Assembly: GCF_008107635.1 (NCBI RefSeq)
Contig: NZ_SDGZ01000008.1
Coordinates: 1 to 64,000, forward strand
Length of the DNA stretch: 64,000 nucleotides
Direction: 5' to 3'
Origin: Weissella muntiaci
Lineage (GTDB): Bacteria > Bacillota > Bacilli > Lactobacillales > Lactobacillaceae
Each line of letters starts with the position of its first letter. Position 1 is the first letter of the stretch. The translations under genes and the position numbers were made by a program. Below the pieces are notes generated by a model that saw only the letters and a program-made list of their open reading frames with translations, made no database searches and had not been told where the DNA came from. Shown here piece by piece: positions 1,099-36,002 of the stretch.

Positions 1099-1131
1099 AA
1101 AGGTTGTTAAAAGGTTTTTCATTGTTATATG
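1099..1131 (+). promoter_or_regulatory. 11-bp-phased AAAGGTT repeat array, site 1
   Basis: Three consecutive 11-bp units begin at 1099 (aaaggttgtta), 1110 (aaaggtttttc) and 1121 (attgttatatg). Weak -10-like sequences follow (TATATG at 1126, TATAAT near 1145). The same arrangement recurs at 9273, 24092 and 35968. Direct repeats on one face of the helix are typical of OmpR/PhoB-family activator sites; that reading is an inference. Confidence 0.5.
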
Positions 1132-1217
1132 AAGAGTAAAATAATATAATAAAATAGTAAGTCTTTCGTTTAGGGCTATTTGTAAAATTATTTGTTTTTG
1201 GAAAAAGGAGAAAGTGT

Positions 1218-4200
1218 ATGACGGCTAAGACGCTATCCCATCGCGCTATGTTAAAGCATGATGAATTGGATATGACCAGAAATCGCAAATATAAGTTGAT
1301 AAAGGTTGGGAAATTTTTAACAACTGCTTCAACTATGGCTATTACAGGTGTTCTGGTAAACACAAGTTTTGTAAGTGCTGATGTGCAAAATGCAACAGGA
1401 AGTAAGAATAGTGACACTAGTGTTACTGAAGTATCGAGTAGCAAAGTTTCAGATGTTTCTGGAGACAACCTTGATGCAAGTAGTAATACGACAGGTGATC
1501 ATTCTGAGGTAGTAGTCAAAGCAGGAACTGATACTACAGTTACAAAATCAAGTGAAACCAGTGCTAATTCGACAAGTTCATCTGAAAACAGCTCACAGAC
1601 TAATTCTGAAACAGTGAATACCAGTGAGACATCATCAACGGCAAGTACGAGTGAGTCGTCATCAACAGCTTCATCACAACAATCTTCAAGTCAATCACAA
1701 GAAGCTGATAAAGCAAGTTCGTTACATGTTGAAGCAAGTAACTTTTCGAGTATTGCTGCCTCAGCCCAATCTGCAATCGATTCGATGGCGATTGAAGATG
1801 GAAATGCTAATAAAGCTGCAGGATTTGTATCCAATGACGCTTTTGTCGCTTTAGGTCAACATCAAGAGACTGAGAGTAGTGTTGTTGCAGACAACGTAAA
1901 AAAAGCTGATGAATATATGGCCAAGGGTGATAATGAAGCAGCAAGCTCATTGATCGTTGCTACGGCAGGTATTATCGCAACTATGAATCAAGAGATTCAA
2001 TTAGCCGCTGCAATGGTCGAAGAGGACTCTTTCGGAGCCGATGCTAATGTAAAGGCTAGAGCTGATGAAGCGTTGAATAAGTTGCCAAATATTGACAAAA
2101 TCAAGTACCAAACTGATGCTTATGGAGATCTGATTGTTTCCGTTGATAAGTCAGCTGGGCTTGGAGCATATAACGACGCGATTGCCGCTATTACTAAGGC
2201 TGGCTTGAGCTCAAACTTCCGAAACATTGTTGACCCAATTGTTGGTGATGGATTAAATGGTGGGACAATAACTGATCCAAGTGGTATCAGCATTACATTG
2301 AGTGGTTCTCGAAATAATTCGACTGCTGCAAATATTAACTGGGGATCAGAGGGTTCGGCTCAACAAATTGAGCAAGGATTCAACCCTACTTTGACGATTA
2401 CGCCTACCCCTGGTAGCAAGCTAACGCAAGAAAATATGGAGGACATGTTAGTCAATGACAACGGTCTTTCATTCAATAGCGGGAATGTTCAAGTTACTGG
2501 ACAGGATGTGCGGACAGGTGCATCAAAAGATGCATATCTTTCGGCTGCTGGTGCAAATACAGGTGATAACAATGCAGTTGTTGCCGATTGGCAAACTGGG
2601 ACAGTCATTCATTTAGGGCAAGTTGGAACTACGGTGTCAGGTAAAGCTATTTCGGCCGATATTAAAATTACTGGTGTAAATGGAGGATCAGGACTATCTG
2701 CATTACCAAATACTGGTTCATTCTGGTTCGTTGGTGCTGGAGGTATTTCATATAATGGTGTCGGACTTTCAAGCGACCTGGAATGGTATGTTGATGGAAA
2801 GCCAGCTACATTAGTAACGATGGATATGATCACTGATTTAGATCAGGGACAAAGTGTTCAGTACCAGACAGGTGTTCCTACAGCCGTTCTAGCTGGATCT
2901 GCACTAACTTATGATGCTTCTACTCAAACATATAATGGGGGACTTCAAACTGGCGGTGGGAAAACAGCTGGAGCCCAAGCATTTATCTCAGTGACAGTTG
3001 GAACCCATATTGGGATGAGTTTTGTTGAGTACAATGGTTCAGCAACGTATGGTATTCAAAGCTATGGTAATTTAAGTCAAACTATTCGGAATATTTCCTA
3101 TCCACAAAAGCTACAAGTTCAGTATTATGACGATACTACCAAGACATACTTATCTGATGATCAGGTTAAGTCTATGGGATTGTCTAACGAAATTAACGGT
3201 TTGTCTGGTGAGTCCGGAACAGTTGTCTTGCCGATTCCGAAAAATTACGAAGTAAGTTGGGCAAACAATGGCCAACTGGTAGCAGATAAAGGTACCGTTA
3301 AAAACGGTTATGAATTAGTTGGAAGTGGCCTTTCAACTGATACATCTGGTATCAATGCCACAAGTAAGCCTTTGTCTGTAAATAAAAATTATTACGAGAC
3401 AACTGGAACTAGTAAATTGGCTTATACTTTCGATAACAACGAGGATAGCCAAGGAGATACTCAAAAAGTAATTGTCCATTTGGTTCATGCAACTGAGGAT
3501 GGTGTTGCAACCAATAACTATACAGTTAATTATAAGACTTCCGATGGGTCTAAATTACCAGCATACGTTCACTCAGTTACTCAAAGTGTGAACTGGACTG
3601 ATTCACATGACTTGTTGACAGACACTCATGTTTATACTCCAGATTATGATATTGTGAACACAACTTCTCCAAAAGTCCCAGGTTATGTAGCAGATCAAGA
3701 AGCGGTTACGTCTGGTTCATGGAATCAAAGGTCAACACAAACTGTCTTGCCTTCAAATGAAGTGAAGTTGGTGACTTACACACCTGCGACTGCCAAGGTG
3801 ATTGTAAAGTACCTTGATGATACTACTGGTGGGACGCAAGTTGGTACAACCCAAACGATTGATACCATCACAAACGGAAAGGGTAGCTATACTGTAGTTA
3901 ATCCAGACCCTAGCAAGTGGGTGATTTCTGATATGGTATCTGAGCCTGTACAACTTTTGTATGGCACTTCAGCAGATGGTGTAGGCTCTATGACTACGGA
4001 CGGTCAGAACTTTGGTTCAAAGATTTCTTATGTAGGATCTGATGGAGTAGGTGGAGTTCAAGAAATTGATATTCATCTAAGCCACAAAAATAATGTTACT
4101 GAATTTGCCAAAACACAATATGTTGTAGATTATAAATTCGGTGATGTCGGAAGTTCATTGACTGGTACAACGGCAGCGCCAAGTCATACAATGAACGTTG

Positions 4201-7200
4201 TATGGACAAAAACTATTGACGAAGTCACTGGAGCTATCACATTATCTCCAAATACTAGTCAATTTGAATCAGCGGTACCATCCCCTGAAATCAAAGGATT
4301 TACGCCTGATTCAAATCAGTCATCATTCACACAACCTATTGCTGTAACCTTCCCAAAGGGAACGCCTGATAGCAATATTGTTGCTGCTTTGCAAAATGAA
4401 CATATTCTAGTTCAGTACGATGGAGACCACCAATCAGCAAATGTACATTTTGTGGATGTTAATTCGAAGTATATGGGCGATGGAAATGGTAATGATCCGA
4501 AGGGACAAAAAGATGGCTTCGATGAAAAGGATGGCAATGAATTAACTGCCTATCAAGATACATTGACTGGAATTACTAGCCAAGGTTTGCAAACAAGTGT
4601 TCAGGATAAGATCAAGGCTCTTGAAGATAAGGGATACAAAGTTATTGAGACATCTGCTGGTGCGCAAACAAACGGAGCAATCAATTTAACTTTCGACAAT
4701 GATGATGCAACTAATCAAAATGTTGTATTCTATGTAATTCATGATGGTGGACCAGTAACAAAGGATGATGTTCCTGGACCAAATTTGCCAGATAAGAACG
4801 GTAACGTCAGCGTTTCTACTGAAATTGATTACGTTTATGGTGCAAATGCTGGGGATAAAGCTGGACAACAAGCTGCAAATCCATCAATTGAAAATTCAGT
4901 GATGAATGGTTGGAAGGACAAGGTAACCGGAGATATTGATTGGAACCCAGCTAGTGTGAAAACAGCTGATGTTAAGTCACCAATTATTAAAGGTTACACA
5001 CCTTCAGAGAGTGTTGTATCAGGTCGAGAAGTTACACCTTCTTCGAATAATTCAAAGAAGACAGTGACTTACTTCGCTGATGACCAAAAAGCTAACATCA
5101 CTTATCATGATGAGGACTCAAACAATCCACATGACAATATACCTGGACAGGTTATCACTGGTTCGACTGGCGAACATAAAACAGTGACGTTGACGCCACC
5201 AGATGGTTATGTGATTGATCCTTCTAACTTACCATCAGATGGTAAATATAATCCGGATGACAAGTCATGGACATTTGATATGGACGATGACGATAATGTA
5301 GATCAAAATTTCAATTTTGGACTAAAGCATGATTATCAAAATGCCAAAACTGGCCAACCGGGTGTTCCTGATGGTGTTGAACTTGATGCTGATGGTAACA
5401 AAGTTATCACGCGTACAGTTCACTATCTGTCTACTACAGGAGTTACTTTAGCTCCAGACGTAGTACAGACAGTTGTGTATCATGGAATTTATGATCCAGT
5501 CGAAAAAATGACTAAATTTGTAGTTTATCGTGATATGACTACGCTGACTACTATTCCAAATTCAGTCAAGAGTGTTACATCAGATACTAAGAATGAAATT
5601 GCTTACGGTCTTGGTGATGATGGATTAACATCAGGCATGGAAATGAACGATGTGCCATCACCATTTATTAAGGGGCATAATGCTTCGCAAAGCCAAGTGA
5701 CAAATTATGCTACAATTTTGACGACACCAAGTCAGGATGAAGTTGTAACGTATGATGGTTACAAGGATTCAACAATGTTTGTATACTATGATGATGTAAC
5801 AGGCAAGATTATCCCTGAGACAGAGCAAATGTTTAGTGGGGATGAAGGTCAAAAGTTTGTAAATCAAAGTTTGGACTTTGATATTTCAAAAAATCATTAT
5901 TCATACGTAGACACAACTGATGGTAGTGCTGCTGGAAATGTAGTAACTGATGTTGTAAATTCTGATGGAACGAAGGCAACATTTGTGACAGGTTCACATG
6001 TGTACTACATCCATTTAACACATCAATATATCCCCGCAAAAAATGGAGATACAGGGCTTCCCGAAGGTGTAACTCCTGATGAAAAGGGAAATTATGAAGT
6101 TACGCGCACGATTAAGGTTGTAAATGAGAACGGTGACGCATTGTTTAGTATTCCTCAGAAGGTACAATTCAATGCACAACTCGATCTTACAACAGGAACG
6201 GTCTCTTATACTCCAAGTGAGGGGATGTTTGAGGCATATACTGTACCTGAGATGAATGGTTATACTGCAGATAAGTCGTCTGTGGAAGCAATGAAGGTTA
6301 CGCCAGACACCAAATCATCGGAAGTGGTTATCACTGAAATTGCCCAAGGGCAAAAAGCTGAAATCTCGTATGAAGATGAGAGCGGTAACAAGATTGATTT
6401 GAGTTCTAAAACCCAGAATATTGCAGGTAAAACAGGTTCTCAGGCAAGTGTAGGTCTATGGGACTTCGCTAGTGCTGGATTTATGATTGATGAAGCTAAG
6501 GCCAAAGCAAACGGTTTGTCATTGTCAGATAACGGAAAAACACTCAATTTTGCGTATGATACAGATACAAGTAACACGCAAAAGTTTGTTATTCCGCTAA
6601 AGCATGTAATTCGTGGGGCAGTAACTGGTGATAAAGGTCTACCGGATGGAATGACTTTGGATAGTAATCATAACCATGTAGTATCACGTACGATTAATTA
6701 TGTTGATGCAAATGGTAAGGTAGTAAGTCCTAAATATGTTGAACAAGTTGCTTACCATGCAACAATTGATGTTGCATTAGGTAAAGTTTCTTGGACAGTA
6801 GATAAGGCAAACTCAGTGGACTCACAAACGTTGACACCAACATTGATCAGTTCTGATTCAATGGAGTCTACTTTCAACCGAGGTATTGTTGGAGGCAGCT
6901 TGCAGGATAGCTTGAATGAAGTTTCAGTTCCAACATTGTCAGGCATGAAACTTATTTCATCAGATGCTAGCGTTAGTGATCTAAAGGTATCACTTGGAAG
7001 AGATAATGCTGTTGTCAACGTTGTATATGCCGAGCAAGGTGCTACCGGTTCAGAAGTATCATCAGTAGTTGATAGTGCTGGAGCAAGCCAATCATCAAAT
7101 AATTCAAATGCCTCTGGAACTGAGAACTTAGCTACCGCACAACAGGATGCACAGTACTTCATTGACCTGGCATCTACTGCGACTTATACAACTCCTAATG

Positions 7201-8744
7201 TGGACAAAGCAATAGCAGTATTAAAGGCAATGTTGAGTAATTCTGATGTTACCGCCCAAATGATTATGGATGAATTAAATGCGAATAAACCAGCATTGAT
7301 GCAAATCAATTATGCAATCAAGGGAGCCGGTACTCCAATCGCAAATTCAGACTTCATTATGGGAACAGTTTCAGATACTGTTGCAGCGGGGGATGATCCA
7401 AACGCAGGATTTAAAATCCCATTGAAGAATATTCCAGGATATAAATTCGCAAATACCATCAACAATGGTTCAACCGAGTTTAAAACTGCATCAGGTAAGA
7501 CAATTAAGGTCGTAATTGGTGAAGGTGGCGCATACATTGAAGACGATATGGAGTCTATTAATTTGACTATGGATTATGTAGTAGACAATACTTCGGGTAC
7601 TAGCCAAGCAGGATCAAATTCGTCACAAGGTTCGCAATCACAAGCTCAATCACAAGGTTCAGCGGCGCATAGTAACGCAAATTCTCAACCTGTTGATAAC
7701 ACGTCAGGCGACAATAAGGGTGAAACTGGTAATCCAGTTGTTGATACAACAGTTACTCAACACTTTATTGACTCAACTACGGGTAAAGAGGTTGAAGTAT
7801 TGGCACAAACTAAGGCTGGAACACCAGGTAGTGATCATAAATTTGATCTACCAGATTTCGGTGCTCTAGGTTACGGTGACGATACCTCTAAAGCTTCAGA
7901 TCAAGACAGTTTGACCGGTAAGTTTGGAAACAAGAATAGTGATATCTATCATTACTTAGTTGAAAAAGAGGTCCCAGCTACATCGAAAGATGAGGGAGTA
8001 CCTTCAAATGTCGATGATAAGACTGGCATTGCCGAAGTCACTCAAACTGTGAATTTTGTGGATGAGAATGGTAAGAAAATCTCTGATTCAAATATTCAAA
8101 CTGCTAGTTTCAAATACATGAAGAATTTGGTTACTGGCAAGATCACAATGACTGTGGTTAAGAATAATTTTGTTGAGGTTAATGCTCCAAAGGTGGATGG
8201 TTATCAATTACTGACACCTTCATACGCTACAATTAAGCCCGTTAATGGGCTGACAGCTATGTCAGAGTCATCAGTGATTAATGTGCCATATCATCAAATT
8301 AAGACTATTTGGAATGATCAAAGTGGTAAGGAAATCAAATCTGTTGTAGGAACTGCAGTAGTTGGAGATGTTGATGGATACGTTTTGGTAAACACTAAGC
8401 AAACAGCTAAGGGCGATACTGTTTATACTATGGAAGCGGTTGATAAAGCCACTCCCGGAGCCGACAAGACAATCGATAATGGTAACGATAATGCGGGATC
8501 CCAAAACAACGGTGGTTCAACAAAGGCTGCTGTGAACGATTCACCAAGCACAAAGGCTACTATGCTACCAAACTCAGATACTGGCGTTCAAGCTGCAGGT
8601 ATTGGCGGAGCTGGCGGTACTAGTCAAGCAACTCTGCCTGACACAGGAATGACTGATAGTTGGTTCTTAGTTGAGGAAGTAGTAGGAGCTTTGACACTTG
8701 CTGGAGCTGCGGTAGTAGGAAAGAAAAATAAGCGTGAGATTTAA
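1218..8744 (+). CDS. Giant MucBP-repeat LPXTG adhesin with KxYKxGKxW-like signal
   Basis: A 2508-residue cell-wall adhesin; the ATG has an AAAGGAG ribosome binding site 6-12 bases upstream. Residues about 22-34 (KYKLIKVGKFL) are a variant of the KxYKxGKxW signal, with Phe for Trp, followed by a hydrophobic stretch ending in SFVSADVQ. Residues about 65-165 are Ser/Thr-rich. A globular N-terminal region, possibly ligand-binding, spans roughly 180-720. Residues about 750-2400 hold many MucBP/Mub-B2-type repeats with recurring signatures such as VTYTPATAKVIVKYLDD and KGYTPSES. The C-terminus has LPDTG at 2473-2477, a hydrophobic segment and a KKNKRE tail, the sortase A signal. KxYKxGKxW proteins are usually exported by SecA2/SecY2 and glycosylated; none of those genes is in this window. 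Function inferred: binding to mucus or matrix, or cell aggregation. Confidence 0.93.
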   Translation: MTAKTLSHRAMLKHDELDMTRNRKYKLIKVGKFLTTASTMAITGVLVNTSFVSADVQNATGSKNSDTSVTEVSSSKVSDVSGDNLDASSNTTGDHSEVVVKAGTDTTVTKSSETSANSTSSSENSSQTNSETVNTSETSSTASTSESSSTASSQQSSSQSQEADKASSLHVEASNFSSIAASAQSAIDSMAIEDGNANKAAGFVSNDAFVALGQHQETESSVVADNVKKADEYMAKGDNEAASSLIVATAGIIATMNQEIQLAAAMVEEDSFGADANVKARADEALNKLPNIDKIKYQTDAYGDLIVSVDKSAGLGAYNDAIAAITKAGLSSNFRNIVDPIVGDGLNGGTITDPSGISITLSGSRNNSTAANINWGSEGSAQQIEQGFNPTLTITPTPGSKLTQENMEDMLVNDNGLSFNSGNVQVTGQDVRTGASKDAYLSAAGANTGDNNAVVADWQTGTVIHLGQVGTTVSGKAISADIKITGVNGGSGLSALPNTGSFWFVGAGGISYNGVGLSSDLEWYVDGKPATLVTMDMITDLDQGQSVQYQTGVPTAVLAGSALTYDASTQTYNGGLQTGGGKTAGAQAFISVTVGTHIGMSFVEYNGSATYGIQSYGNLSQTIRNISYPQKLQVQYYDDTTKTYLSDDQVKSMGLSNEINGLSGESGTVVLPIPKNYEVSWANNGQLVADKGTVKNGYELVGSGLSTDTSGINATSKPLSVNKNYYETTGTSKLAYTFDNNEDSQGDTQKVIVHLVHATEDGVATNNYTVNYKTSDGSKLPAYVHSVTQSVNWTDSHDLLTDTHVYTPDYDIVNTTSPKVPGYVADQEAVTSGSWNQRSTQTVLPSNEVKLVTYTPATAKVIVKYLDDTTGGTQVGTTQTIDTITNGKGSYTVVNPDPSKWVISDMVSEPVQLLYGTSADGVGSMTTDGQNFGSKISYVGSDGVGGVQEIDIHLSHKNNVTEFAKTQYVVDYKFGDVGSSLTGTTAAPSHTMNVVWTKTIDEVTGAITLSPNTSQFESAVPSPEIKGFTPDSNQSSFTQPIAVTFPKGTPDSNIVAALQNEHILVQYDGDHQSANVHFVDVNSKYMGDGNGNDPKGQKDGFDEKDGNELTAYQDTLTGITSQGLQTSVQDKIKALEDKGYKVIETSAGAQTNGAINLTFDNDDATNQNVVFYVIHDGGPVTKDDVPGPNLPDKNGNVSVSTEIDYVYGANAGDKAGQQAANPSIENSVMNGWKDKVTGDIDWNPASVKTADVKSPIIKGYTPSESVVSGREVTPSSNNSKKTVTYFADDQKANITYHDEDSNNPHDNIPGQVITGSTGEHKTVTLTPPDGYVIDPSNLPSDGKYNPDDKSWTFDMDDDDNVDQNFNFGLKHDYQNAKTGQPGVPDGVELDADGNKVITRTVHYLSTTGVTLAPDVVQTVVYHGIYDPVEKMTKFVVYRDMTTLTTIPNSVKSVTSDTKNEIAYGLGDDGLTSGMEMNDVPSPFIKGHNASQSQVTNYATILTTPSQDEVVTYDGYKDSTMFVYYDDVTGKIIPETEQMFSGDEGQKFVNQSLDFDISKNHYSYVDTTDGSAAGNVVTDVVNSDGTKATFVTGSHVYYIHLTHQYIPAKNGDTGLPEGVTPDEKGNYEVTRTIKVVNENGDALFSIPQKVQFNAQLDLTTGTVSYTPSEGMFEAYTVPEMNGYTADKSSVEAMKVTPDTKSSEVVITEIAQGQKAEISYEDESGNKIDLSSKTQNIAGKTGSQASVGLWDFASAGFMIDEAKAKANGLSLSDNGKTLNFAYDTDTSNTQKFVIPLKHVIRGAVTGDKGLPDGMTLDSNHNHVVSRTINYVDANGKVVSPKYVEQVAYHATIDVALGKVSWTVDKANSVDSQTLTPTLISSDSMESTFNRGIVGGSLQDSLNEVSVPTLSGMKLISSDASVSDLKVSLGRDNAVVNVVYAEQGATGSEVSSVVDSAGASQSSNNSNASGTENLATAQQDAQYFIDLASTATYTTPNVDKAIAVLKAMLSNSDVTAQMIMDELNANKPALMQINYAIKGAGTPIANSDFIMGTVSDTVAAGDDPNAGFKIPLKNIPGYKFANTINNGSTEFKTASGKTIKVVIGEGGAYIEDDMESINLTMDYVVDNTSGTSQAGSNSSQGSQSQAQSQGSAAHSNANSQPVDNTSGDNKGETGNPVVDTTVTQHFIDSTTGKEVEVLAQTKAGTPGSDHKFDLPDFGALGYGDDTSKASDQDSLTGKFGNKNSDIYHYLVEKEVPATSKDEGVPSNVDDKTGIAEVTQTVNFVDENGKKISDSNIQTASFKYMKNLVTGKITMTVVKNNFVEVNAPKVDGYQLLTPSYATIKPVNGLTAMSESSVINVPYHQIKTIWNDQSGKEIKSVVGTAVVGDVDGYVLVNTKQTAKGDTVYTMEAVDKATPGADKTIDNGNDNAGSQNNGGSTKAAVNDSPSTKATMLPNSDTGVQAAGIGGAGGTSQATLPDTGMTDSWFLVEEVVGALTLAGAAVVGKKNKREI

Positions 8745-9272: not shown

Positions 9273-9305
9273 AAAGGTTATTCAAAGGTATACTAAAGTA
9301 GTAAC
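9273..9305 (+). promoter_or_regulatory. 11-bp-phased AAAGGTT repeat array, site 2
   Basis: Consecutive units start at 9273 (aaaggttattc), 9284 (aaaggtatact) and 9295 (aaagtagtaac). A TATACT -10-like box lies at 9289-9294. No long gene follows; the next candidate is a 31-codon ORF at 9544 and a terminator at 9716. Confidence 0.5.
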
Positions 9306-9543
9306 ATCTTTAATTTATTTTTTTATTCTATCTATCCTTATAGATGAGCACTTAATTAATTTATTCTTTAATTAGTTTAATTAATGAATGGATATTCCAA
9401 AGTGTTATTTTTAAAAGATTTATCAACGATATTTTCGTTATGATTGGACATAATTGGTTTATGGAGACATAATTTATCAATCAATGCTAGTAACTGGTAA
9501 TAAGGAATACGGGGCTAACAGTTATTTTTTGCAGGAGATTATT
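9306..9543. other. AT-rich stretch with no recognised gene
   Basis: No convincing coding frame is visible. A short direct repeat, TTATGATTGGAC followed by an AATT-containing tail, occurs here at 9439 and again at 9542, where its ATG is the start of the small ORF. The stretch may be a long 5' leader or decayed sequence. Confidence 0.4.
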
Positions 9544-9639
9544 ATGATTGGACGTCAATTAGCCAGACGGTGGAGAATTTTTATGTTGTTTGATATGCCC
9601 TTTTTTGGTCATATTTGTGTTGAACAACACAACAGCTAG
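9544..9639 (+). CDS. Possible 31-residue peptide
   Basis: ATG preceded at a good distance by GCAGGAG (9531-9537). The peptide begins MIGRQLARRWRIFMLF: a basic N-terminus, then hydrophobic, with one Cys near the end. A longer in-frame version from 9454 lacks a ribosome binding site. The unit is bracketed by the repeat array at 9273 and a terminator at 9716, which supports a short transcript. Whether the peptide is made is unknown; it could be a leader, a signal peptide or chance. Confidence 0.3.
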   Translation: MIGRQLARRWRIFMLFDMPFFGHICVEQHNS

Positions 9640-15514: not shown

Positions 15515-16799
15515 AAGTATACTTGAAATAGATGTTTCAGATTTGAGTAGAATGACGCATCCCCGTGGGGGTGGTGAATTTACTGATGAACAGGGCAAAG
15601 TAGTAAAAAAACATTTCTGGTATGTAATCGATAAAGGAGTTTGTCCGATTTGTGGTAAAGGTGGCAAAAAGAATAATTGGTGTGAGGTCAGAGATGATGG
15701 CATGGCAGTTATTTGCAATCACGATTTATCTGGGGAATCAATATATGGTGAAGATGTCTATCCAACCAGAATGAAGCAAGGTTTTAATCATTATTTTGGT
15801 AAGAAATCAAACATCAGTGTTAAACCAGTTAAATTTAATAATATCCCCACAATCAAACAGCTTCCTTTGGCTGATGCTTCTACAAGGGATATCGTTTATA
15901 GATTAGTATTGAAATATTATCCGCTAGTTGAGAAAGATAGAGAAAATCTTCTTGCACGCGGGTTGAACAATGAAGATGTAGACGGTAAACTATTTGGTTC
16001 TTTAGTTTCAACAAAACCGATTGATAGATGGTCAAAAATATTTGCTGAAAATAATTTACCTTCTGACATTTGGAAAGGCGTACCAGGCTTTGCAGAACAA
16101 GTCTTTGGAGACAAAACACTGGTATCTTTTGGTTATAGTTCGCTGACCTACGAAAAAGATGGAAAGCGCGTGAATTCACTTAAAGATGGTGATTCAATGT
16201 TAATGGTCCCCTATCGAAATAATTCGCTTCAAATAGTTGGTATTCAACTAAGAAGTGCAAATTATACAGGTAACGGATCAAAATATTTTTGGGTATCATC
16301 ATCGAGTGAAAATAATGGAGCTAGTGTTTCACAAGAAGTAAACTTTGCATTGCCTACCGCTGGAATGAAAAGGTTGGAGCAACAAGACGGCAAGCTGAGC
16401 ACAAAAACAGTTTGGCTAACCGAAGGTGGCTTGAAGTCAGAGGTGGCGGTGCGACAACTAGTAAATATCGCAACTGATATTACAAAATTGCCAAACCAGG
16501 AAGACAAGCTGGCTCGCTTTCTTGATGACTATGGATTAACAGTAATTGCTGTTGCCGGTACAGCTGTTTGGAGAAAGTTCATTGATGTTCTTCAAGAGTC
16601 ACAGGTCAAGCGTGTAATCGTCGCTTATGACTCTGATTGGAAAACAAATGAAACTGTTGCTGCAAGACGTAATGAATTAATTGAGGCATTAAGAATTATG
16701 GATGTCACATTAATTGTTGCCGATTGGGATGGCTCAAATGGTAAAGGAATAGATGATTTATTAGCCAATGGTTATTGGCCAAGCCTGGAAACTCTTTAG
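15507..16799 (+). CDS. Primase-like Zn-finger/Toprim-like (DUF3854-type) protein
   Basis: 430 residues from ATG 15507, inside the end of the preceding gene, with AGGGAGAG upstream. Near residues 45-70 lies a Cys cluster (CPICGKGG, then C and C about 12 and 24 residues on), a primase-type zinc finger preceded by FWYVIDKG. Toward the C-terminus, RVIVAYDSDWKTNE (about residue 368) and ADWDGSNGKGIDDLL match the acidic DxD and the GKGIDDLL signature of Toprim-like DUF3854 domains found in phage and plasmid primase relatives. No helicase domain is fused. Likely role: priming or DNA-end handling in element replication, working with the nearby SSB. Inference from motifs and context. Confidence 0.75.
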   Translation: MSKSILEIDVSDLSRMTHPRGGGEFTDEQGKVVKKHFWYVIDKGVCPICGKGGKKNNWCEVRDDGMAVICNHDLSGESIYGEDVYPTRMKQGFNHYFGKKSNISVKPVKFNNIPTIKQLPLADASTRDIVYRLVLKYYPLVEKDRENLLARGLNNEDVDGKLFGSLVSTKPIDRWSKIFAENNLPSDIWKGVPGFAEQVFGDKTLVSFGYSSLTYEKDGKRVNSLKDGDSMLMVPYRNNSLQIVGIQLRSANYTGNGSKYFWVSSSSENNGASVSQEVNFALPTAGMKRLEQQDGKLSTKTVWLTEGGLKSEVAVRQLVNIATDITKLPNQEDKLARFLDDYGLTVIAVAGTAVWRKFIDVLQESQVKRVIVAYDSDWKTNETVAARRNELIEALRIMDVTLIVADWDGSNGKGIDDLLANGYWPSLETL

Positions 16800-24091: not shown

Positions 24092-24136
24092 TAAGGTTAT
24101 TAGATGTATATAGAAAGGTTTTTAAAATGTTATAAT
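24092..24136 (+). promoter_or_regulatory. 11-bp-phased AAAGGTT repeat array, site 3, with -10 box
   Basis: Units begin at 24092 (taaggttatta), 24103, 24114 (aaaggttttta) and 24125 (aaatgttataa); TATAAT is at 24131-24136, 17 bases after the start of the 24114 unit. This is the promoter region of the type IV secretion operon. Confidence 0.55.
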
Positions 24137-24167: not shown

Positions 24168-25202
24168 ATGGAAGAGAATAGCAATGAAAAGGGCCAAGAA
24201 ATTCAAGACCTTGATGAAAAAGGTGAGAATACTGAGCTAGAAGAACAATTTATCGAACAAATTGAGAAGAAAGAATTAGATGATGAGGAATATTACGATG
24301 ATCTAATGCAAGTAGTTAGGGACGGCGAATATTACTTTAGTGATTTTGTCCCATTTATTGATTTTCTACTTGAGATGGGAATATTGTACATCCGGGACTC
24401 AATGGTTATTTATGAAATTCCTAATGGTTATCGTTTTGAAATTCTATATGAACAATCGACTATGAACCCCTATTTGAAGTCTCCAAAAGAACTTGAACTG
24501 GATCAAGCAATGCGTCAACAATTTTTGTCGACGTTAGATAACAGAAATAGAACTGACTTTTATGTTCAATCAGAGAAGATTGATATGTCCACATACACAA
24601 AGAAGTTGATAAGACAAACTGAGGAACGTTGGTCGAAACCTGACCAAATTGCCCTAAAAGAACGTGCACTAGAAATAATTCAGCACACTAGTGAATATCA
24701 AAGACAAGAGGAACGATTCGAGCCCAGGGCGTATGTTGGTCTGTCCTATAAAGTGTATTTTGAAGAAGTCAATGACTATGAAGAAGACGAGAAACTAGAT
24801 GCAATGATTCAAATCGCATTTATGCACCTAACTAGTAAAGGTGAATATTACAATCAGACTTTATCAACTGTTGGTCGAAGTTTGAAATTTGTTGATACAG
24901 AGGCACTTGTAAATATACTATATAGAACATTTAATCCTGAAATGGCTAATAAATTACCATTACACAAGCTACGCGAAAACTCGAATTTTTCACTCATTCC
25001 CGTTTCTGAACAAACTGAGAAAACACTTGTTTTAGTGAAAGAACTTGGTGAGATATTTAGGAAATCCTTCAAGAGTTCGATCGAGGAATTAAGAAAAACA
25101 AGGAAAACAGATGAGCTAATTGTTGATGAATTCACAGGAAAGACTTTCAACGATGTATTGGCTAATGTATCAGACGATGTATTTAATAACACTAATGGAT
25201 AG
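24168..25202 (+). CDS. Acidic protein preceding VirB4, probable T4SS component
   Basis: 344 residues; TAGGAG precedes ATG 24168. The N-terminal 50 residues are very acidic (EENSNEKGQEIQDLDEKGEN). The rest is soluble, with a segment YVGLSYKVYFEEVNDYEED that recalls the N-terminal halves of VirB4/TraC-family ATPases. No Walker motifs. It lies 8 bases before the VirB4 gene, so the two are surely co-expressed. I infer a cytoplasmic or membrane-associated partner of the secretion ATPase. The family assignment is uncertain. Confidence 0.7.
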   Translation: MEENSNEKGQEIQDLDEKGENTELEEQFIEQIEKKELDDEEYYDDLMQVVRDGEYYFSDFVPFIDFLLEMGILYIRDSMVIYEIPNGYRFEILYEQSTMNPYLKSPKELELDQAMRQQFLSTLDNRNRTDFYVQSEKIDMSTYTKKLIRQTEERWSKPDQIALKERALEIIQHTSEYQRQEERFEPRAYVGLSYKVYFEEVNDYEEDEKLDAMIQIAFMHLTSKGEYYNQTLSTVGRSLKFVDTEALVNILYRTFNPEMANKLPLHKLRENSNFSLIPVSEQTEKTLVLVKELGEIFRKSFKSSIEELRKTRKTDELIVDEFTGKTFNDVLANVSDDVFNNTNG

Positions 25203-25210
25203 GCGGAAAG

Positions 25211-27334
25211 ATGGGATTATTAGATAAAATTTTTAACAGGAATAATGATGAAGAAGACGTTAACGATATCGAAGTGGGATACCAATTTGGTGAAGGAGAA
25301 GATGCCATCCCCTCTGTGACGCTATCTAATGTTATCGGGCCTTCGGTCATAACAACTAATGATAACTATAGGGATGTGGTTCTTATAAGCGATACTGTGG
25401 GACATCACACAGTTTGGTTACCATTTTTTATGACCCCAACCGGTTATCCGCATATATTTAAGCCGGATATGCTGGATCAAGTCCTAGCAAATGGATTTGT
25501 AAATATGCACTTGGCCGTCAATGCCTTCTCAACTAGAGAGTCTGTTAAGAAGTTTCAAGATCAAGAACAAAACATGATGGTAGATACTATTACGAAGTCA
25601 CAACAAGGTCAAATAGCTAAGGTTGAAGCGAATAGGCGGCAAATGGATGAAGTTACTGCACATTTAAGAGCAGCAGACATGCAATTGAATCAATTATTTG
25701 AAATATCGCTTACAGGCGTTATTACAGCCGATAGTATTCGTGAAGCAGATATGAGGGCAGCAAGTATTGAAGGTCAATTTGCATCAGTAAATGGTTCGAT
25801 AGCAAGGTTCGATCAACAAGCGTTGACGGGTGTGAAATTAGCTTTGCCATTAGGCTATCACGAGGATAATACCGAAGCATGGCATACTTATCGAGAAGTA
25901 AGCCGAAGTGCAGTAGCTATGATTGATTTTGCCCGCTCAGGTGCATCAGTTTTTAACGAAGGCTTTCCATTTATCAAAAACCTTTCCACTCCAGCAAAGA
26001 ACATTGAGTATTATAACCATGCTGGTACGGATATTATGCCTGTCGATAGTTACAGCATGATAGTTACTGGGTCGACTGGAGGTGGTAAATCCTTTGCAGT
26101 CAAAGTATTCCTTTACAGAGATATTTTAATGACTGGGAATCCCAAAAGAGGATTTGATCCAGATGGTGAATATATAAGTCTTGCAAAAGCATTAGGAAAA
26201 CACGGCTTAAATCTAACATTTGACCATGATTCTCCTTTTGTAATTAATGTTATCGAGGCTAATATTACAGAAATTGACATAGAAGAGCTTACAGGTGAAA
26301 GAGACGCAGATGGTGAACCGTTGGAGACAGATGCCTTAGTAAATAGTTTGAGATCAGCAGGTAAAAAAGTTGTCTATCGAAACAACAATTATTATGTACA
26401 ACGTGTCAGCATCAATGAGGCGATAGATATGGGTGTTTTAGTAATGAACACTTTCCTAACGACTTTAAAACAAGAGCCAATGAACGAGAGAGAAAACAGA
26501 TTAGTTTTGAACATTATGCGCAAGTTGTTTGAAGAACGCGGAATTAATTCTGATCCAGACTCTTTGTATTCTGGAACTCCAGGAACGAGAAACGGACTTT
26601 ACTATAAATCACTACCGAAGGATCAACCAACATTAACTGATTTATTTATCAAATTAAATGAGGAAAAGGGAGCCGAACGGTTAGTGAATACACTTGCTGA
26701 GTTTGTTTCTGGGATTGGTACTTATACACTGTTTGATGGACAAACAAACTATGGAAATAATATCAGTACTAAATTAGAAGAATTTCTCTATGTAAACTAC
26801 GATATGTCCAAATTAGACGGGGAAAATACACGTTTAAAATTTATCACAATGACGTTACTTGGTTACCAAGTATCGAATTCATGGATGAAGGCACCTAATG
26901 TAGCAGATAAGATAAAACTGATTATGTTTGAAGAACTTACGACTTTTACGACTTACGAGCCAATCAAAGACCTAGCGGCATATATTGCACAACGTGGACG
27001 CAAATATTCTGCTGGCGGAATTTATGTAACGCAGGACATGAGCCAATTTGAAACGGATCAAAAATATATAAGTATAAAGAACAATTCTTACAACTATATG
27101 TTTTTTAAGACACAGAGTACGCAAGCAGAAATTGTTCAAAATTTGTTTAACTTGTCTGATGGAGCTACAAGGATAATCTCATCAACTGATACTTCCATTG
27201 ATACGCGAAGTAAGGACCACGCAGGCTTATTCATTCAAGGAAATCAGGTGACTCACGGTATAGTGGACGCTACTGAGACTGAAATTAAGTTGTTCGAGAG
27301 TAACCGTAAGAAGCGCATGGAAGCTAAGTTATAA
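25211..27334 (+). CDS. virB4: VirB4-family conjugation ATPase
   Basis: 707 residues; GGCGGAAAG before ATG 25211 partly overlaps the preceding stop. Walker A is MIVTGSTGGGKSFAVKV (about residues 281-297). KRGFDPDGEY follows, the usual 'D-P-x-G-E-Y/F' VirB4 element. Walker B is IKLIMFEELTTF (about 569-580). QRGRKYSAGGIYVTQD matches the conserved motif before the C-terminal ATPase part. VirB4 powers assembly and substrate transfer in type IV secretion systems. Its neighbours, a VirB6/TrbL-like protein and small membrane proteins, fit a Gram-positive conjugation apparatus. Confidence 0.93.
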   Translation: MGLLDKIFNRNNDEEDVNDIEVGYQFGEGEDAIPSVTLSNVIGPSVITTNDNYRDVVLISDTVGHHTVWLPFFMTPTGYPHIFKPDMLDQVLANGFVNMHLAVNAFSTRESVKKFQDQEQNMMVDTITKSQQGQIAKVEANRRQMDEVTAHLRAADMQLNQLFEISLTGVITADSIREADMRAASIEGQFASVNGSIARFDQQALTGVKLALPLGYHEDNTEAWHTYREVSRSAVAMIDFARSGASVFNEGFPFIKNLSTPAKNIEYYNHAGTDIMPVDSYSMIVTGSTGGGKSFAVKVFLYRDILMTGNPKRGFDPDGEYISLAKALGKHGLNLTFDHDSPFVINVIEANITEIDIEELTGERDADGEPLETDALVNSLRSAGKKVVYRNNNYYVQRVSINEAIDMGVLVMNTFLTTLKQEPMNERENRLVLNIMRKLFEERGINSDPDSLYSGTPGTRNGLYYKSLPKDQPTLTDLFIKLNEEKGAERLVNTLAEFVSGIGTYTLFDGQTNYGNNISTKLEEFLYVNYDMSKLDGENTRLKFITMTLLGYQVSNSWMKAPNVADKIKLIMFEELTTFTTYEPIKDLAAYIAQRGRKYSAGGIYVTQDMSQFETDQKYISIKNNSYNYMFFKTQSTQAEIVQNLFNLSDGATRIISSTDTSIDTRSKDHAGLFIQGNQVTHGIVDATETEIKLFESNRKKRMEAKL

Positions 27335-27934: not shown

Positions 27935-30900
27935 ATGAGTTCTAAATATAAAACCATATTGTTTCCGGCCCTAATATTATTATCTGTGTTAATGGCTTCT
28001 ATGCTGGTATCTAAGTCGAGTATTGTTCAAGCTTATGATACTTCGGCACCTAACTACCAGAAAGGTTCTGGAGAAGCGGAAGAAGCCGAGGGTCACATCA
28101 AAGGTACGATTATTGATAACACAATCAATAAGGGATCTGAAATATTAAGTAATATTGGTGCGGATATATCTGGCGCCTTGGGAAATAAGACCGCCGCTGA
28201 GGTTTCGAGTGAAAAAGCAAAGAATGCAAGTTCATTGAGCGCTAAAACTGAATCAAACAAATCTGTTCAGGCATCAAATGCTTCTACAATTTCAAGTGAA
28301 GCGAAACAAAATGGTGTTGATGATTATAGCGAAATTCCGCTCTGGAGCAAAATTAAAAGCGCAATTTTGAATATGATCTTTCCTGTTGAAGAATTGAATA
28401 ATGTAATGTCATTCTTTGGATTATCTAGATTCATCTTGATGCTCGATAGTGGTGAATTAGTAAATAAGGATGGTTCCAATCCCACCAAGTTACGTGGAGT
28501 ATTTTCGAGTGACGCATCAAATGAGGATATGCTGAAAACTTTAGGCGCAAATCCTTTGGTTGTGATTTTCTTGGCCTTTGATCAGGATGGTAAGTTAATT
28601 AGTTCACTGATGGATATTTATCAAAGATTCTCATTATTGTTTACTTATCTAGCAGGAATAATATCAGTAATTGTATTAATTTTCCTTGGTATGAGGTTAG
28701 TTAAATCAGGGGTGTTAATGGCTCCCTTAGAAAGAGTAAAAGCGATATATTCGTTATTAGACTTTGTAGTAGTGGCAACAGTCGAGGTCACATATACTAA
28801 GATTGTTGGAATATTATTATACTTTGATGGCATATTTGTGATACTAGTGCGAAATACGATGAAAGCCATCCCCGTGGGAAATGGAAATCTGCTACTATTA
28901 GCAGAAAACTTGTTCAGTACAGTTGCGGGTAAAACTGTTGAAGCCGGAGTGGCAACAGGTGCATCAATGGCACTTGCAACATTATTTCCGGGTGTTGGAG
29001 CTATTTTGACAGGTACTTCAGCTATGTCATCCATAGCTATTCTATTTGCTCTGATGGCATTAGCAGGTCTGATGGTCTATAATTCATTTTTCTATTTTTC
29101 AAGAATGATCTCATTTGGTTTTTTGTTTGTCATTGGCCCAGTGATGATAATATTTGCGGTAGTCCCACAGTTAAGAGGGCGATTCTACAATTGGATTAAG
29201 GAACTATTGGGTACAATATTCTATCAAGCAATTCAGGCATTCGTATGGGCAATTTGTCTGGTTATCATTGGTGTAGGCTTGACAAGCATGAATATCATTA
29301 AGGATCTTTCAGGTTCAAGCATGATTGATGCGTTGCTAATGATTATAGGCGTTAGTATGTTAAGACCCGCTACTAATGCAATAATGAGTATCTTACAAAT
29401 AACTTTCAACATGGTTGGGGACATTAATAAAGCAACATCAACAAGTACTATTGCAGCTGCTACAACATCAGTTGTAAGTGGTGTAACAGCTGGAGTAGGA
29501 GCCGCAGGTCTCTTATCAGGGTTAAGCGGAACAGCATTGGGTGAAGCTGATATTTTATCTAAGATTGGAGACTTTGGTGGACTTGCTAAGAAATTTGGTG
29601 CTGGAAATATCGGCAATAGTCTTAAAAATTTGGAATCTGCAATGGCTCTGGGTAAAAATGGTGCTTCAGAAAGTGCTTTGGAAGCAGCTAAGGAATTACC
29701 CGATGATGCGTTAGATAAATCTAAAAAAGCAGCAAATTCTAAGATAGAACAGTGGAAGTCAGATGGATATGATGTTGAGAATGGTCAAATTCCCAAAGGT
29801 GGTATTGCTGAGCTTTCAGATGCGATGAATGAGGGCTTTGAACATAATGACGTTCGGAATGATCTTGCACTAGATAAAATGGAAGATGATAGTCCTGGAA
29901 TGAAAACCAAGAGACGTTTTGGGCAAATGTTTGGTAACAATGAGAACTCGAATTTTAAAAATTACGTGGATAAGGTAGCTGGTTGGCAAGGTTTGAGTAA
30001 GATGAGCTCAGTAGTTTCAGGTGCTGCAACTGCTGGATTTGTAACTGGCTTAACAGATAATGGAATCTATGGATCTGCGGCTGGAGCAAAAGTAGCTCAG
30101 TTGACGGGGAAAAAAGTAGAAGAATTTGGTAATGATAAGGTTGGTCGATGGTTAAGTACATTACAACCGACAGTCGAAGGTGAACCTACAGATATTGACG
30201 ATTCCCTTGATGAAGCAAGAATATTGCAAGCAAATGATTCAACAAGTGAGTTTATGGATTCATTAGGGCGTACATCCACAGATATGCCTACTAGGAGTGG
30301 CAACAAGGGCTTCGCCATAGATGCTAGTACAATTAAGTCTCCTAGGCCTTCGGGTGTTTCTGAGGCGGGAATGACGTTCAAAGCTATGGGGCTTCCAGAT
30401 AATATATCTGACTCAATGGCAGACGGTTTGCCTGACGGAGTGTCCGCTTGGGGAGTACAAACTAATAAAGGGCTCTCAATAAAGGGGGATGACGGTCAGC
30501 TTTATGGTGGTATTGGTCGCGCTGATATGCAATTAGGAAATTCTCAGGTTAAAATGCAGCCCCTTGTTTCTCGCAATGGTACATTTGAACCTAAAGGCAA
30601 CTACGCAAAGATATTAACATCAGCAGGAGCTTCCGCGATCTTGTCAAACTCTAGGACATTTGATAGTTTGGATGGCATTTTGGACCAGCCTCTCTCAGCT
30701 GATGGAATCAATTCAACAGGTATAGGAGCAATGAACTCAGTTGGAGGAATTGCACCAGGAACATCTACAATTACCCCCATGCAGTTTGGTTTTGATTATT
30801 CTAATCCGCCAGTGGCAAACGGTAATGTATTGAAGACAATGTTTGATACTGGTGCTGATGCCATGATTGTAACTGGTAAGAATGGTGCAAACCAATTCTA

Positions 30901-31264
30901 CAATGGTCGTATTTCTGGAAATGGCGTCATTCAAACAACAAACTTCAATCCCATTTCATCAGGATATTCGTCAAATATGGAAACGATTGCTGCAAAAGGC
31001 AACAGGCCGTCAGTTAATCGAGCAATGTCTAGCATCAGTTTGCATCCGGGTGAAGCGATGTTGTATGACTATAAATCTTCTGCCTGGGGCCTTACAGTAG
31101 ATGGTGAGCGACAACCAATTGTTTCGGATCGTTTGAAAACAACAGCAAACGCATTGGAGACTCTGCGGAATAACGGGGTTTTTGATACACCGACCCCAGT
31201 ACAAGCTATTGCAGATGATATGGCTAATGGTATCATGTTTGATATTCCATATCGCCTGCAGTAA
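27935..31264 (+). CDS. VirB6/TrbL-like polytopic conjugation channel protein
   Basis: 1109 residues; AGAAAGGAG before ATG 27935. An N-terminal signal-like helix (TILFPALILLSVLMASMLV) is followed by an Ala/Ser/Lys-rich external segment. A membrane domain of five to six helices covers about residues 230-455, including FTYLAGIISVIVLIFLGMRLV and FFYFSRMISFGFLFVIGPVM. The large C-terminal region (about 500-1109) is hydrophilic with Ala/Gly-rich stretches. This layout is that of TrbL/VirB6 proteins of Gram-positive conjugative plasmids, which form the membrane pore. Position right after VirB4 and a one-helix protein supports the call. Confidence 0.85.
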   Translation: MSSKYKTILFPALILLSVLMASMLVSKSSIVQAYDTSAPNYQKGSGEAEEAEGHIKGTIIDNTINKGSEILSNIGADISGALGNKTAAEVSSEKAKNASSLSAKTESNKSVQASNASTISSEAKQNGVDDYSEIPLWSKIKSAILNMIFPVEELNNVMSFFGLSRFILMLDSGELVNKDGSNPTKLRGVFSSDASNEDMLKTLGANPLVVIFLAFDQDGKLISSLMDIYQRFSLLFTYLAGIISVIVLIFLGMRLVKSGVLMAPLERVKAIYSLLDFVVVATVEVTYTKIVGILLYFDGIFVILVRNTMKAIPVGNGNLLLLAENLFSTVAGKTVEAGVATGASMALATLFPGVGAILTGTSAMSSIAILFALMALAGLMVYNSFFYFSRMISFGFLFVIGPVMIIFAVVPQLRGRFYNWIKELLGTIFYQAIQAFVWAICLVIIGVGLTSMNIIKDLSGSSMIDALLMIIGVSMLRPATNAIMSILQITFNMVGDINKATSTSTIAAATTSVVSGVTAGVGAAGLLSGLSGTALGEADILSKIGDFGGLAKKFGAGNIGNSLKNLESAMALGKNGASESALEAAKELPDDALDKSKKAANSKIEQWKSDGYDVENGQIPKGGIAELSDAMNEGFEHNDVRNDLALDKMEDDSPGMKTKRRFGQMFGNNENSNFKNYVDKVAGWQGLSKMSSVVSGAATAGFVTGLTDNGIYGSAAGAKVAQLTGKKVEEFGNDKVGRWLSTLQPTVEGEPTDIDDSLDEARILQANDSTSEFMDSLGRTSTDMPTRSGNKGFAIDASTIKSPRPSGVSEAGMTFKAMGLPDNISDSMADGLPDGVSAWGVQTNKGLSIKGDDGQLYGGIGRADMQLGNSQVKMQPLVSRNGTFEPKGNYAKILTSAGASAILSNSRTFDSLDGILDQPLSADGINSTGIGAMNSVGGIAPGTSTITPMQFGFDYSNPPVANGNVLKTMFDTGADAMIVTGKNGANQFYNGRISGNGVIQTTNFNPISSGYSSNMETIAAKGNRPSVNRAMSSISLHPGEAMLYDYKSSAWGLTVDGERQPIVSDRLKTTANALETLRNNGVFDTPTPVQAIADDMANGIMFDIPYRLQ

Positions 31265-31281
31265 CGAACGGTCAAGCATCT

Positions 31282-31885: not shown

Positions 31886-31981
31886 TTAGAATAACTATAA
31901 AATTATTTAAAAAAATGTTACTTCAACTTTTGAAGTGCACATTATTGATTAATAGCAGGACATTTTTATCAATATATACCC

Positions 31982-32596: not shown

Positions 32597-32794
32597 TGCA
32601 ATATCCTATCCTTTAAGTGTTTAAAAATAATATTACCATAAACTATGCATAAATTTATAAGGAATGAGTATAAGTGATAAGGATATAACATTGTTCGTAC
32701 CACTTATAAACGGAAAACTCAATCCTTTAAATACACTTTTACTTGATGTATCATAAAAATATTAACTTAAATCTAATATGATGAGGGCGGAATT

Positions 32795-34490: not shown

Positions 34491-34592
34491 TTTATAGTTA
34501 GGTACAAATCAAAAAAATCAGAGACGTTTAAAATCCATATTTGCTGTATAACGGCCTAAATCTAAAAAATCCGCTAGAGTCACAATATAAAT

Positions 34593-34625
34593 AAAGGGTC
34601 AGAATTTAAGTTTCTGACCCTTTTT
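34593..34625. terminator. Bidirectional terminator between YolD and the XRE gene
   Basis: aaagggtcagaa/ttctgaccctttt stem with a short loop and T5; A-rich on the other side, so it can end both converging genes. Confidence 0.85.
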
Positions 34626-34956: not shown

Positions 34957-35215
34957 GAAAAGCGCTCCTGATATACATGAAATATAATTAAAAAAACGGC
35001 TTGCATTAAGGAAATATCGTGTTATATTTATATATATACAAGCGGAAACTATGAATGAATTCAAAGTGAGAATATATATAAACTTGCGCTGTTTGAGAAT
35101 AAAAAACAGCCGACAATATTTTTTTCAATCAACGTTAGTATATCATAGATTGGCACATTGATGGATTTTATAGAATCATGTTTGTATACAAAATATATTT
35201 GTTGAGGTGAATACA
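34957..35215. promoter_or_regulatory. Divergent promoter region between XRE and tandem-HTH genes
   Basis: AT-rich 259-base spacer with no gene. It contains a gctgttt/aaacagc hairpin around 35090-35113 followed later by a T7 run on the plus strand. CTTGC and GCAAG-like elements are repeated near 35001 and 35080. Expected to carry both promoters and XRE operators; exact boxes are not certain. Confidence 0.45.
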
Positions 35216-35689
35216 GTGAAAATTGATTCTACTTCGCAATATCATGTTGAACGTATAGGTTCATTACTCGGAAACATCTATTCCGCTGGTTTACGTGAGA
35301 AAGATGTATTCGATTATTTAAAAATTTCCAAGATGTCCTGGTGGAATTTGAAAAACAACAAAGCTGGTGTATCTATCAATTTGTATCTTACACAAGCTGA
35401 ATTGTACGTTTCTAGAATCAATGACGAAGTTGATTTAAAGGAGTCATATTCTACAAGGGTTTGGAGTAAAACGGTTGGCAAAATGACTGCACTCATATAT
35501 TCGGCAAGAATAAAAGAAGCTGATGTATATGAGCAAGTGGGAATTAGTAGGCCAACGTGGTTGCAATTCAAATATGGAGATTTATCAAAAAATCGAATGC
35601 AGTATGTCTTTGATCAAGCGAAAAAAATTATAATGCAGAACCTAGATGAAGTTCGCTGTAAGGCCGGATACGTTCGAATCATAGAATAG
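35216..35689 (+). CDS. Protein with two tandem HTH-like repeats
   Basis: 157 residues from GTG 35216, which has TGAGGTG 7-13 bases upstream (the alternative GTG at 35207 lies in the site). Two similar units are visible: IGSLLGNIYSAGLREKDVFD with LKISKMSWWNLK, and VGKMTALIYSARIKEADVYE with VGISRPTWLQFK. Each looks like a helix-turn-helix ending in a Trp-rich recognition helix. Internal duplication would let one chain bind two half-sites. The RelB-like gene follows 9 bases downstream. Possibly a regulator of replication or partition. Confidence 0.72.
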   Translation: MKIDSTSQYHVERIGSLLGNIYSAGLREKDVFDYLKISKMSWWNLKNNKAGVSINLYLTQAELYVSRINDEVDLKESYSTRVWSKTVGKMTALIYSARIKEADVYEQVGISRPTWLQFKYGDLSKNRMQYVFDQAKKIIMQNLDEVRCKAGYVRIIE

Positions 35690-35698
35690 GAGAAAAGT

Positions 35699-35860
35699 AT
35701 GTCAGAAAAGCTAATTCAGTTGAGAATCGACGGAGAACTTAAAGACAGTGCGGATGAAATATTCAAAAAGCAAGGCCTTTCAACTCAAACCGCCATTAAG
35801 ATCTTTTTGACTCAAGTGGCAAATTCGGGAACAAGTCCGTTTGATAATATTTTTATTTAG
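35699..35860 (+). CDS. RelB/DinJ-like antitoxin, no toxin adjacent
   Basis: 53 residues; TAGGAG before ATG 35699. The order SEKLIQLRIDGELKDSADEIF, then QGLSTQTAIKIFLTQV and SPFDNIF matches the RelB/DinJ ribbon-helix-helix family (RxDxxLK, AIxxFLxQV, PF). These normally neutralise RelE/YafQ RNases. No toxin gene follows; a terminator comes next. A close paralogue lies at 59310, also alone. It may act as a repressor or a safeguard against a toxin elsewhere. Confidence 0.8.
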   Translation: MSEKLIQLRIDGELKDSADEIFKKQGLSTQTAIKIFLTQVANSGTSPFDNIFI

Positions 35861-35923
35861 TAACTAATTTGAGTATTTTCCACGTATATGTAAAATACAA
35901 ACCTAAACAAGGTCTGCAAGGAT

Positions 35924-35959
35924 ACTCCTATCTAATAAATTTTAGATAGGAGTGTTTTT
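35924..35959 (+). terminator. Terminator after the RelB-like gene
   Basis: Perfect 12-bp stem actcctatctaa/ttagataggagt with a 6-base loop and T5. Confidence 0.9.
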
Positions 35960-35967
35960 AGTTTATA

Positions 35968-36002
35968 AAAGGTTTATAAAAGGTTATATATTGGTTTATA
36001 AT
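35968..36002 (+). promoter_or_regulatory. 11-bp-phased AAAGGTT repeat array, site 4, with -10 box
   Basis: Units begin at 35968 (aaaggtttata), 35979 (aaaggttatat) and 35990 (attggtttata); TATAAT overlaps the third at 35997-36002. Only about 30 bases separate the -10 box from the adhesin ATG. Confidence 0.55.

Follow-up and report, generated by a model that had tools for sequence, protein, structure and literature searches.

Are the adhesin genes and the DNA-transfer genes of a large plasmid of a lactic acid bacterium controlled through one operator? The question is raised by the first 64,000 bases (the window) of a 112,625-base plasmid contig of Weissella muntiaci, NZ_SDGZ01000008.1 (here C34), in which AAAGGTT units repeated every 11 bp form arrays at promoters. 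The first-pass annotation of the window described four arrays, at 1099, 9273, 24092 and 35968, preceding a giant MucBP adhesin gene, a short unit, a VirB4/VirB6 operon and a second MucBP adhesin gene, and proposed a regulon joining adhesins and conjugation. The four arrays lie at these coordinates, before these genes and in this order, and they are half of the plasmid's eight; the other loci, at 80129(-), 95817(-), 100095(+) and 105163(+), fall beyond the window. The array set is real, plasmid-wide and promoter-borne. Eight co-oriented promoter arrays restricted to the plasmid support the proposed regulon, and they add to its targets two likely type IV secretion system (T4SS) operons, a topoisomerase gene and a nuclease gene. 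To our knowledge, conjugation control in large plasmids of lactic acid bacteria has been little studied, and a search of titles and abstracts found nothing on it; nor did titles and abstracts, among them that of one Listeria paper on DegU, yield a description of an AAAGGTT direct-repeat promoter motif. An operator defined at transfer and adhesin promoters is a handle, in that one DNA fragment could fish out the regulator.

Distribution and phase of the arrays

The host genome comprises 2.29 Mb in 35 contigs, and C34 holds 4.9% of the DNA. Both ends of the contig sit in similar Ser/Thr-rich coding sequence, the right end after a LysM domain and the left end before a CAP domain, and for this reason C34 probably represents the complete circular plasmid, interrupted inside a repeat. 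The whole genome was scanned for AAAGGTT-N4-AAAGGTT, with the reversed pattern as control. With at most one mismatch there were ten matches, against one for the control. Nine fall on C34, where they make up eight loci; the tenth is located within a chromosomal open reading frame (ORF) of 65 residues. With at most two mismatches the genome has 50 matches, of which 13 fall on C34 and 37 on other contigs, against 59 genome-wide for the control, so that outside C34 the motif shows no excess over the reversed pattern. The exact pair occurs in 15 of 397 family genomes, once each in 14 of them and three times in the host genome, always on C34, and in none of 25 other genus genomes examined.

Sites were aligned on the best-conserved unit, n-1, and are named below by the position of that unit; units are listed in the order n-2, n-1, n, and the offset counts the bases from the start of n-1 to the start of the -10-like box.

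1099..1131, + strand: array 1, AAAGGTTGTTA AAAGGTTTTTC ATTGTTATATG; site 1110, units AAAGGTT, AAAGGTT, ATTGTTA; -10-like TATATG at 1126-1131; offset 16
9273..9294, + strand: array 2, AAAGGTTATTC AAAGGTA; site 9273, no n-2, then AAAGGTT, AAAGGTA; -10-like TATACT at 9289-9294; offset 16
24092..24136, + strand: array 3, TAAGGTT, GATGTAT (poor), AAAGGTT, AAATGTT; site 24114, with GATGTAT as n-2 and TAAGGTT further up, then AAAGGTT, AAATGTT; -10 TATAAT at 24131-24136; offset 17
35968..36002, + strand: array 4, AAAGGTTTATA AAAGGTTATAT ATTGGTT; site 35979, units AAAGGTT, AAAGGTT, ATTGGTT; -10 TATAAT at 35997-36002; offset 18
80129, - strand: units AATTGTT, AAAGGTT, AAAGATT; -10 TGTAAT; offset 17
95817, - strand: units AAAGATT, AAAGGTT, AAAGGTT; -10 TATAAA; offset 17
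100095, + strand: units AAAGGTT, AATGGTT, TATGGTT; -10 TATACA; offset 17
105163, + strand: units AAAGATT (TATGGTT further up), AAAGGTT, ATTGCAT; -10 TTTTAA; offset 17

All eight arrays are co-oriented with the next gene, and in all eight a -10-like box begins 16 to 18 bases from the first base of one unit, the weakest being that at 105163. The earlier claim of such a spacing is borne out in the window by offsets of 16, 16, 17 and 18 (TATATG, TATACT, TATAAT and TATAAT); array 1 has a further -10, TATAAT, about 35 bases past the start of its second unit. The match to a -10 peaks at offset 17, where the mean best-of-three is 4.88/6 against an intergenic background of 3.07 and was equalled in 0 of 20,000 random draws, a figure qualified by the choice of register after inspection of the sites. 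The description of consecutive 11-bp units holds for two good units per array; "three or four" includes some poor ones, such as AAAGTAG, the third unit at 9273.

Enrichment was assessed in the intergenic DNA of C34 (about 22 kb) from pairs of words with at most one mismatch in all. AAAGGTT at 11-bp spacing gave eight loci, while the best 7-mer at all other spacings from 8 to 24 gave at most three. The other top-five words at 11-bp spacing were only the reverse complement and shifted forms (AAAAGGT, four loci; AAGGTTG, three). In 40 Markov shuffles of the same DNA the maximum was two loci (36 shuffles) or three (4 shuffles). With exact 6-mers there were four loci, against one for any other combination, the shifted word excepted. 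A composite score of units and -10 exceeded 20 at eight C34 loci, the next independent locus scoring 17.5 inside an ORF, and five shuffles gave nothing above 21, with just two places among them scoring 18 to 21; its matrix was built from the same eight sites, and it demonstrates completeness rather than giving independent proof. The N4 spacers are A+T-rich (84% versus 70%). Flanking sequences are unrelated, with mean identities of 0.285 upstream and 0.323 downstream (random 0.287, 95% point 0.388), and because of this the arrays, judged by sequence, are a repeated operator rather than a copied cassette.

A ninth, weaker place at 103592, before a putative Rep gene, was dropped as having no fitting -10. 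The composite pattern also matches at two places on the chromosome (reversed control 0), which were treated as chance, although this does not disprove them; the first is followed by no likely gene on the same strand, and the second is some 200 bp upstream of an ORF of 100 residues. Across the order (395 genomes) six genomes have one match each, and the reversed pattern gives five matches. An exact AAAGGTT-N4-AAAGGTT-N10-TATAAT occurs at L110 1501-1534 (G466:C51:13196-13229), in a genome from a different family of this order, before an ORF of 122 residues that resembles by eye a phage small terminase; this single-copy match is probably due to chance.

Promoter geometry compared with known operators

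When the -10 hexamer is set at -12 to -7, unit n-2 occupies -40 to -30 and unit n-1 occupies -29 to -19, within one base. In the cited part of PMC10936776 the AfsR box is described as a 22-bp element centred at -29.5, made of an 11-bp repeat from -40 to -30, which covers a poor -35, and a second from -29 to -19. The same layout is found, within one base, in six of the eight sites (usable n-2 with at most two mismatches), and an activator is therefore favoured. The likeness to the SARP/AfsR box of Streptomyces extends to the two 11-bp direct repeats and to their positions, which span the spacer and a -35 that matches at most 4/6. However, the sequence on C34 differs, there are up to four units, often with one abutting the -10, and the plasmid has no PF00486 protein.

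A similar comparison applies to the pho box. PhoB half-sites are given in the cited part of PMC2648988 as 11-bp repeats of seven conserved and four less conserved bases, and PhoB promoters, in that of PMC4496699, as having no canonical -35. The 7+4 units and 11-bp phased direct repeats of C34 are features of this OmpR/PhoB type, but the motif is AAAGGTT instead of CTGTCAT, C34 has no PhoB-type regulator and the chromosome has no excess of sites. Of the OmpR/PhoB-family activator proposed in the first-pass annotation, the operator layout is present (7+4 units that recur every 11 bp and span the -35 and the spacer), but an OmpR/PhoB protein as the regulator is not supported, there being no PF00486 match on C34 and no sign of a chromosomal regulon.

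Single plasmid proteins acting on several plasmid promoters have a precedent in omega of pSM19035, a protein of the Omega/ParB type that binds non-palindromic repeats over such promoters (cited part of PMC9499535). Its sites are consecutive 7-bp heptads at partition and copy-control promoters, unlike the units of C34, which repeat every 11 bp and sit at promoters of transfer and adhesin genes; contiguous heptads are absent from the arrays, and the par region carries a different repeat and no array. In enterococcal aggregation and transfer control of the pCF10 type, adhesin and T4SS are likewise expressed together, but from one long operon under PrgX/PrgQ and not from eight dispersed promoters as on C34.

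Genes behind the arrays

The first genes and recognisable T4SS genes behind the window's arrays are the following.

1218..8744, + strand: surface adhesin of 2508 residues with six Muc_B2 and three MucBP_2 stretches; next gene downstream of array 1
9454..9639, + strand: short ORF after array 2, 61 residues from TTG or 31 from the ATG at 9544
24168..25202, + strand: first operon gene after array 3, 344 residues; its relatives adjoin VirB4 in related plasmids
25211..27334, + strand: VirB4-like T4SS ATPase, with DUF87 over the cut-off and AAA_10 below it; 27-30% identity to seven aligned relatives
27935..31264, + strand: VirB6/TrbL-like membrane protein of 1109 residues, with TrbL below the Pfam cut-off (E 3e-4)
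36033..37283, + strand: LPXTG-anchored MucBP adhesin of 416 residues, first gene after array 4

The operon behind array 3 encodes the 344-residue protein, the VirB4-like ATPase, a 191-residue protein, the VirB6/TrbL-like protein, whose relatives follow VirB4 in related plasmids, and a 162-residue protein; it is the sole clear T4SS operon. Two further runs are likely T4SS operons. That behind 80129(-) encodes proteins of 276, 418, 411, 229, 121, 145 and 455 residues and others; the 418-residue protein has a weak TPR match and weak relatives in two plasmids, the 229-residue protein a weak helix-turn-helix (HTH) and the 455-residue protein phage-lysozyme2/M23 matches. The run behind 105163(+), some of whose genes are akin to genes in the T4SS operons of other plasmids, encodes proteins of 71, 165, 373, 239, 166, 137, 111, 359 and 342 residues, of which the 166-residue (T4SS_pilin, E 0.4) and 137-residue (PrgI, E 0.025) proteins have relatives directly before VirB4 in L. 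reuteri and PV037 plasmids. The 95817(-) array precedes the gene of a type IA topoisomerase of 888 residues, likely a transfer unit, and the 100095(+) array that of an Endonuclease_NS protein (nuclease). One operator is therefore common to the VirB4/VirB6 operon and three likely transfer units, the topoisomerase gene included. None of the arrays on C34 is aimed at the VirD4-like coupling gene (918 residues) or at parAB; that at 100084 sits in the intergenic region common to the VirD4-side operon and the nuclease gene. The T4SS family of these lactobacillus plasmids is poorly known. The uncharacterised genes that would be co-regulated (those of the 276-, 418- and 411-residue proteins and the short unit after 9273) make a list of likely transfer functions.

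The short ORF at 9454..9639 has no Pfam match. Its 31-residue form (9544-9639) lies behind a GGAG seen by eye in an otherwise gene-poor unit and is a candidate small peptide of the regulon.

Search for the regulator

The first-pass annotation saw no OmpR/PhoB regulator encoded in the window, and the same is true of the whole plasmid: PF00486 (Trans_reg_C) has no match on C34, even at E<=10. The genome has nine such matches, all on other contigs. The regulator is most likely plasmid-encoded and an activator. Three candidates lie in the window.

35207..35689, + strand: orphan protein of 160 residues, two HTH-like halves by eye, no confident family; upstream of array 4
41576..42187, - strand: protein of 203 residues with successive HTH motifs (HTH_11, HTH_6 and HTH_23 over the cut-off)
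46815..47525, - strand: orphan protein of 236 residues, very weakly like C34 69819-70559 (blastp E 0.25), without a DNA-binding family match

Other candidates on C34 are proteins of 229, 246 and 247 residues with weak or by-eye HTH and an HTH protein of 99 residues. A 137-residue protein (95898-96311) with one RelB-type match and a second ribbon-helix-helix (RHH)-like half seen by eye is also a candidate array binder; an inverted repeat, CTCTGATA/TATCAGAG, was noted by eye before its start. Plasmid relatives of four candidates, the 160- and 203-residue proteins among them, were not found among 72,556 plasmids. The 229-residue protein is encoded inside the array-driven 80129(-) operon, a position that would allow autoregulation; its AlphaFold2 model (mean pLDDT 43.5) is too poor for use. 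ParB was rejected as array binder, the parA region having its own, different repeat.

Mode of action and alternatives

It is tentatively proposed, at slightly less than an even chance, that the eight arrays are the operators of one plasmid-wide regulon under a plasmid-encoded activator. From their geometry we infer activation rather than repression. A protein recognising AAAGGTT would occupy at least two adjacent units on the same side of the helix, one at about -40 to -34, the next at about -29 to -23 and sometimes another at about -18 to -12. Lying over a non-consensus -35 and directly upstream of the -10, it would recruit RNA polymerase as PhoB and SARP activators do. The two MucBP adhesins, the VirB4/VirB6 operon, the two further likely T4SS operons, the type IA topoisomerase, the nuclease and one short unit would then be activated as a block; cell contact and DNA transfer are probably under the joint control of a single protein, and the order of purpose would be contact first and DNA transfer second. 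In a broader form, which is possible although doubtful, an activator of an undescribed family lacking an OmpR-type domain, for example an orphan multi-HTH protein, would have reached the pho/afs-box layout and become the single master switch of eight promoters, other plasmids of the family having plasmid-specific operators of their own.

Several observations weigh against a plasmid-encoded activator acting in this way. At 24114 and 9273 n-2 is poor, and the two-unit afs/pho register is not found there. The -35 positions match TTGACA at 3-4 of 6 bases (mean 3.5), against a mean of 2.6 for other -10-like boxes of C34; a missing -35 cannot be claimed on account of this difference, which lowers the case for an activator and raises that for a repressor, although the TT of the -35 is often supplied by a unit, which partly explains the better score. 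In most sites a unit abuts or overlaps the -10, as would suit a repressor. The -10 at 105163 is poor (TTTTAA, 3/6; 4/6 when shifted by one base). Three sites, 80129, 100095 and 105163, have their first usable ATG about 0-15 bases beyond the -10 box, so that the mRNAs of these three units may be leaderless or have very short leaders. Eight distant relative plasmids show no enrichment of the motif with at most two mismatches (31 matches, one of them with a single mismatch, against 37 for the control), a lack that, in relatives so remote, says little on conservation. Moreover, the sequence singles out no one regulator among the candidates of C34.

Plasmid repressors often silence genes until they are displaced by an inducer or peptide. 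A plasmid-encoded repressor coating the core promoters, which would hold conjugation and adhesin genes off until its removal, would account for units that span the spacer and, in most sites, extend to the -10, and for the somewhat better -35 positions, and omega of pSM19035 offers the parallel described above. However, the arrays do not cover a consensus -35/-10 promoter (best -35 match at most 4/6), and the best-conserved units, n-1 and then n-2, are at AfsR-box positions and not on the -10; repression is considered rather unlikely. It is improbable that the plasmid co-opted a chromosomal OmpR/PhoB-type response regulator, with conjugation following a host signal. The nine OmpR-type domains on other contigs and the OmpR/PhoB-like operator layout agree with such a regulator, but the rest of the genome has no motif excess, the exact pair is missing from the 25 other genus genomes examined, and no unit pair lying within about 1.5 kb of any of the nine has fewer than two mismatches (best, two).

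Direct-repeat arrays are typical of RHH-ParB centromeres (cited part of PMC9499535), which brings to mind partition (parS-like) or other structural sites without a role in transcription. This is very unlikely for arrays that are dispersed on the plasmid, one per promoter and in register with -10 boxes, and the parA region has another repeat, ACATTRT/AYAATGT, with 79 copies on C34. Two 500-bp bins at 101.0-102.0 kb hold six and seven copies; within 200 bp of the arrays there is none at seven of the eight and four near 100095. Chance similarity or a copied promoter cassette is scarcely credible: the DNA is AT-rich and a single exact pair turns up in 14 of the 396 other genomes of the family, but the shuffle and spacing controls, the gap in composite score and the unrelated flanks contradict it.

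The ACATTRT/AYAATGT repeat clusters before parA (101000-102000) and again before the VirD4-side operon (about 99960-100050). It is likely where the small ParB-like protein encoded at 102513-102836 acts, and a link between partition and the coupling-protein operon through these repeats is possible.

Relatives of the plasmid

Relatives of the VirB4-like protein occur in 52 plasmid records, all below 60% identity and at about 21-30% among the 40 matches listed; 50 of these records are typed non-mobilizable, as are all eight examined, seven of which were read over their whole length. Among 396 other family genomes there are three VirB4 relatives, with at most 29% identity, and among 27 other genus genomes one relative of the VirD4-like protein, with 26%. 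GTDB contigs gave none with the single protein and six loci, of at most 27% identity, with a profile; viral contigs gave none. A de novo operator search of seven related plasmids and parts of three genomes found no comparable dispersed 11-bp regulon.

A promoter-like element of another kind, CTGAATTGTTkTCAGTTGTTAATT, occurs with at most two mismatches in nine dispersed copies on Lactobacillus iners pC0094A1 (NZ_CP049224.1), at 16144, 52927, 54778, 55275, 69250, 70473, 73885 and 76623 on the + strand and at 1905 on the - strand. Most copies are followed by AAAGGAATT, and the eight same-strand copies stand ahead of genes of that strand; the element is possibly a plasmid-wide operator of this distant relative's own. 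The same plasmid has 11-bp TAATCGTGAGT repeats at 38162-38690, in seven clusters within about 0.5 kb, which are likely a centromere or iteron region.

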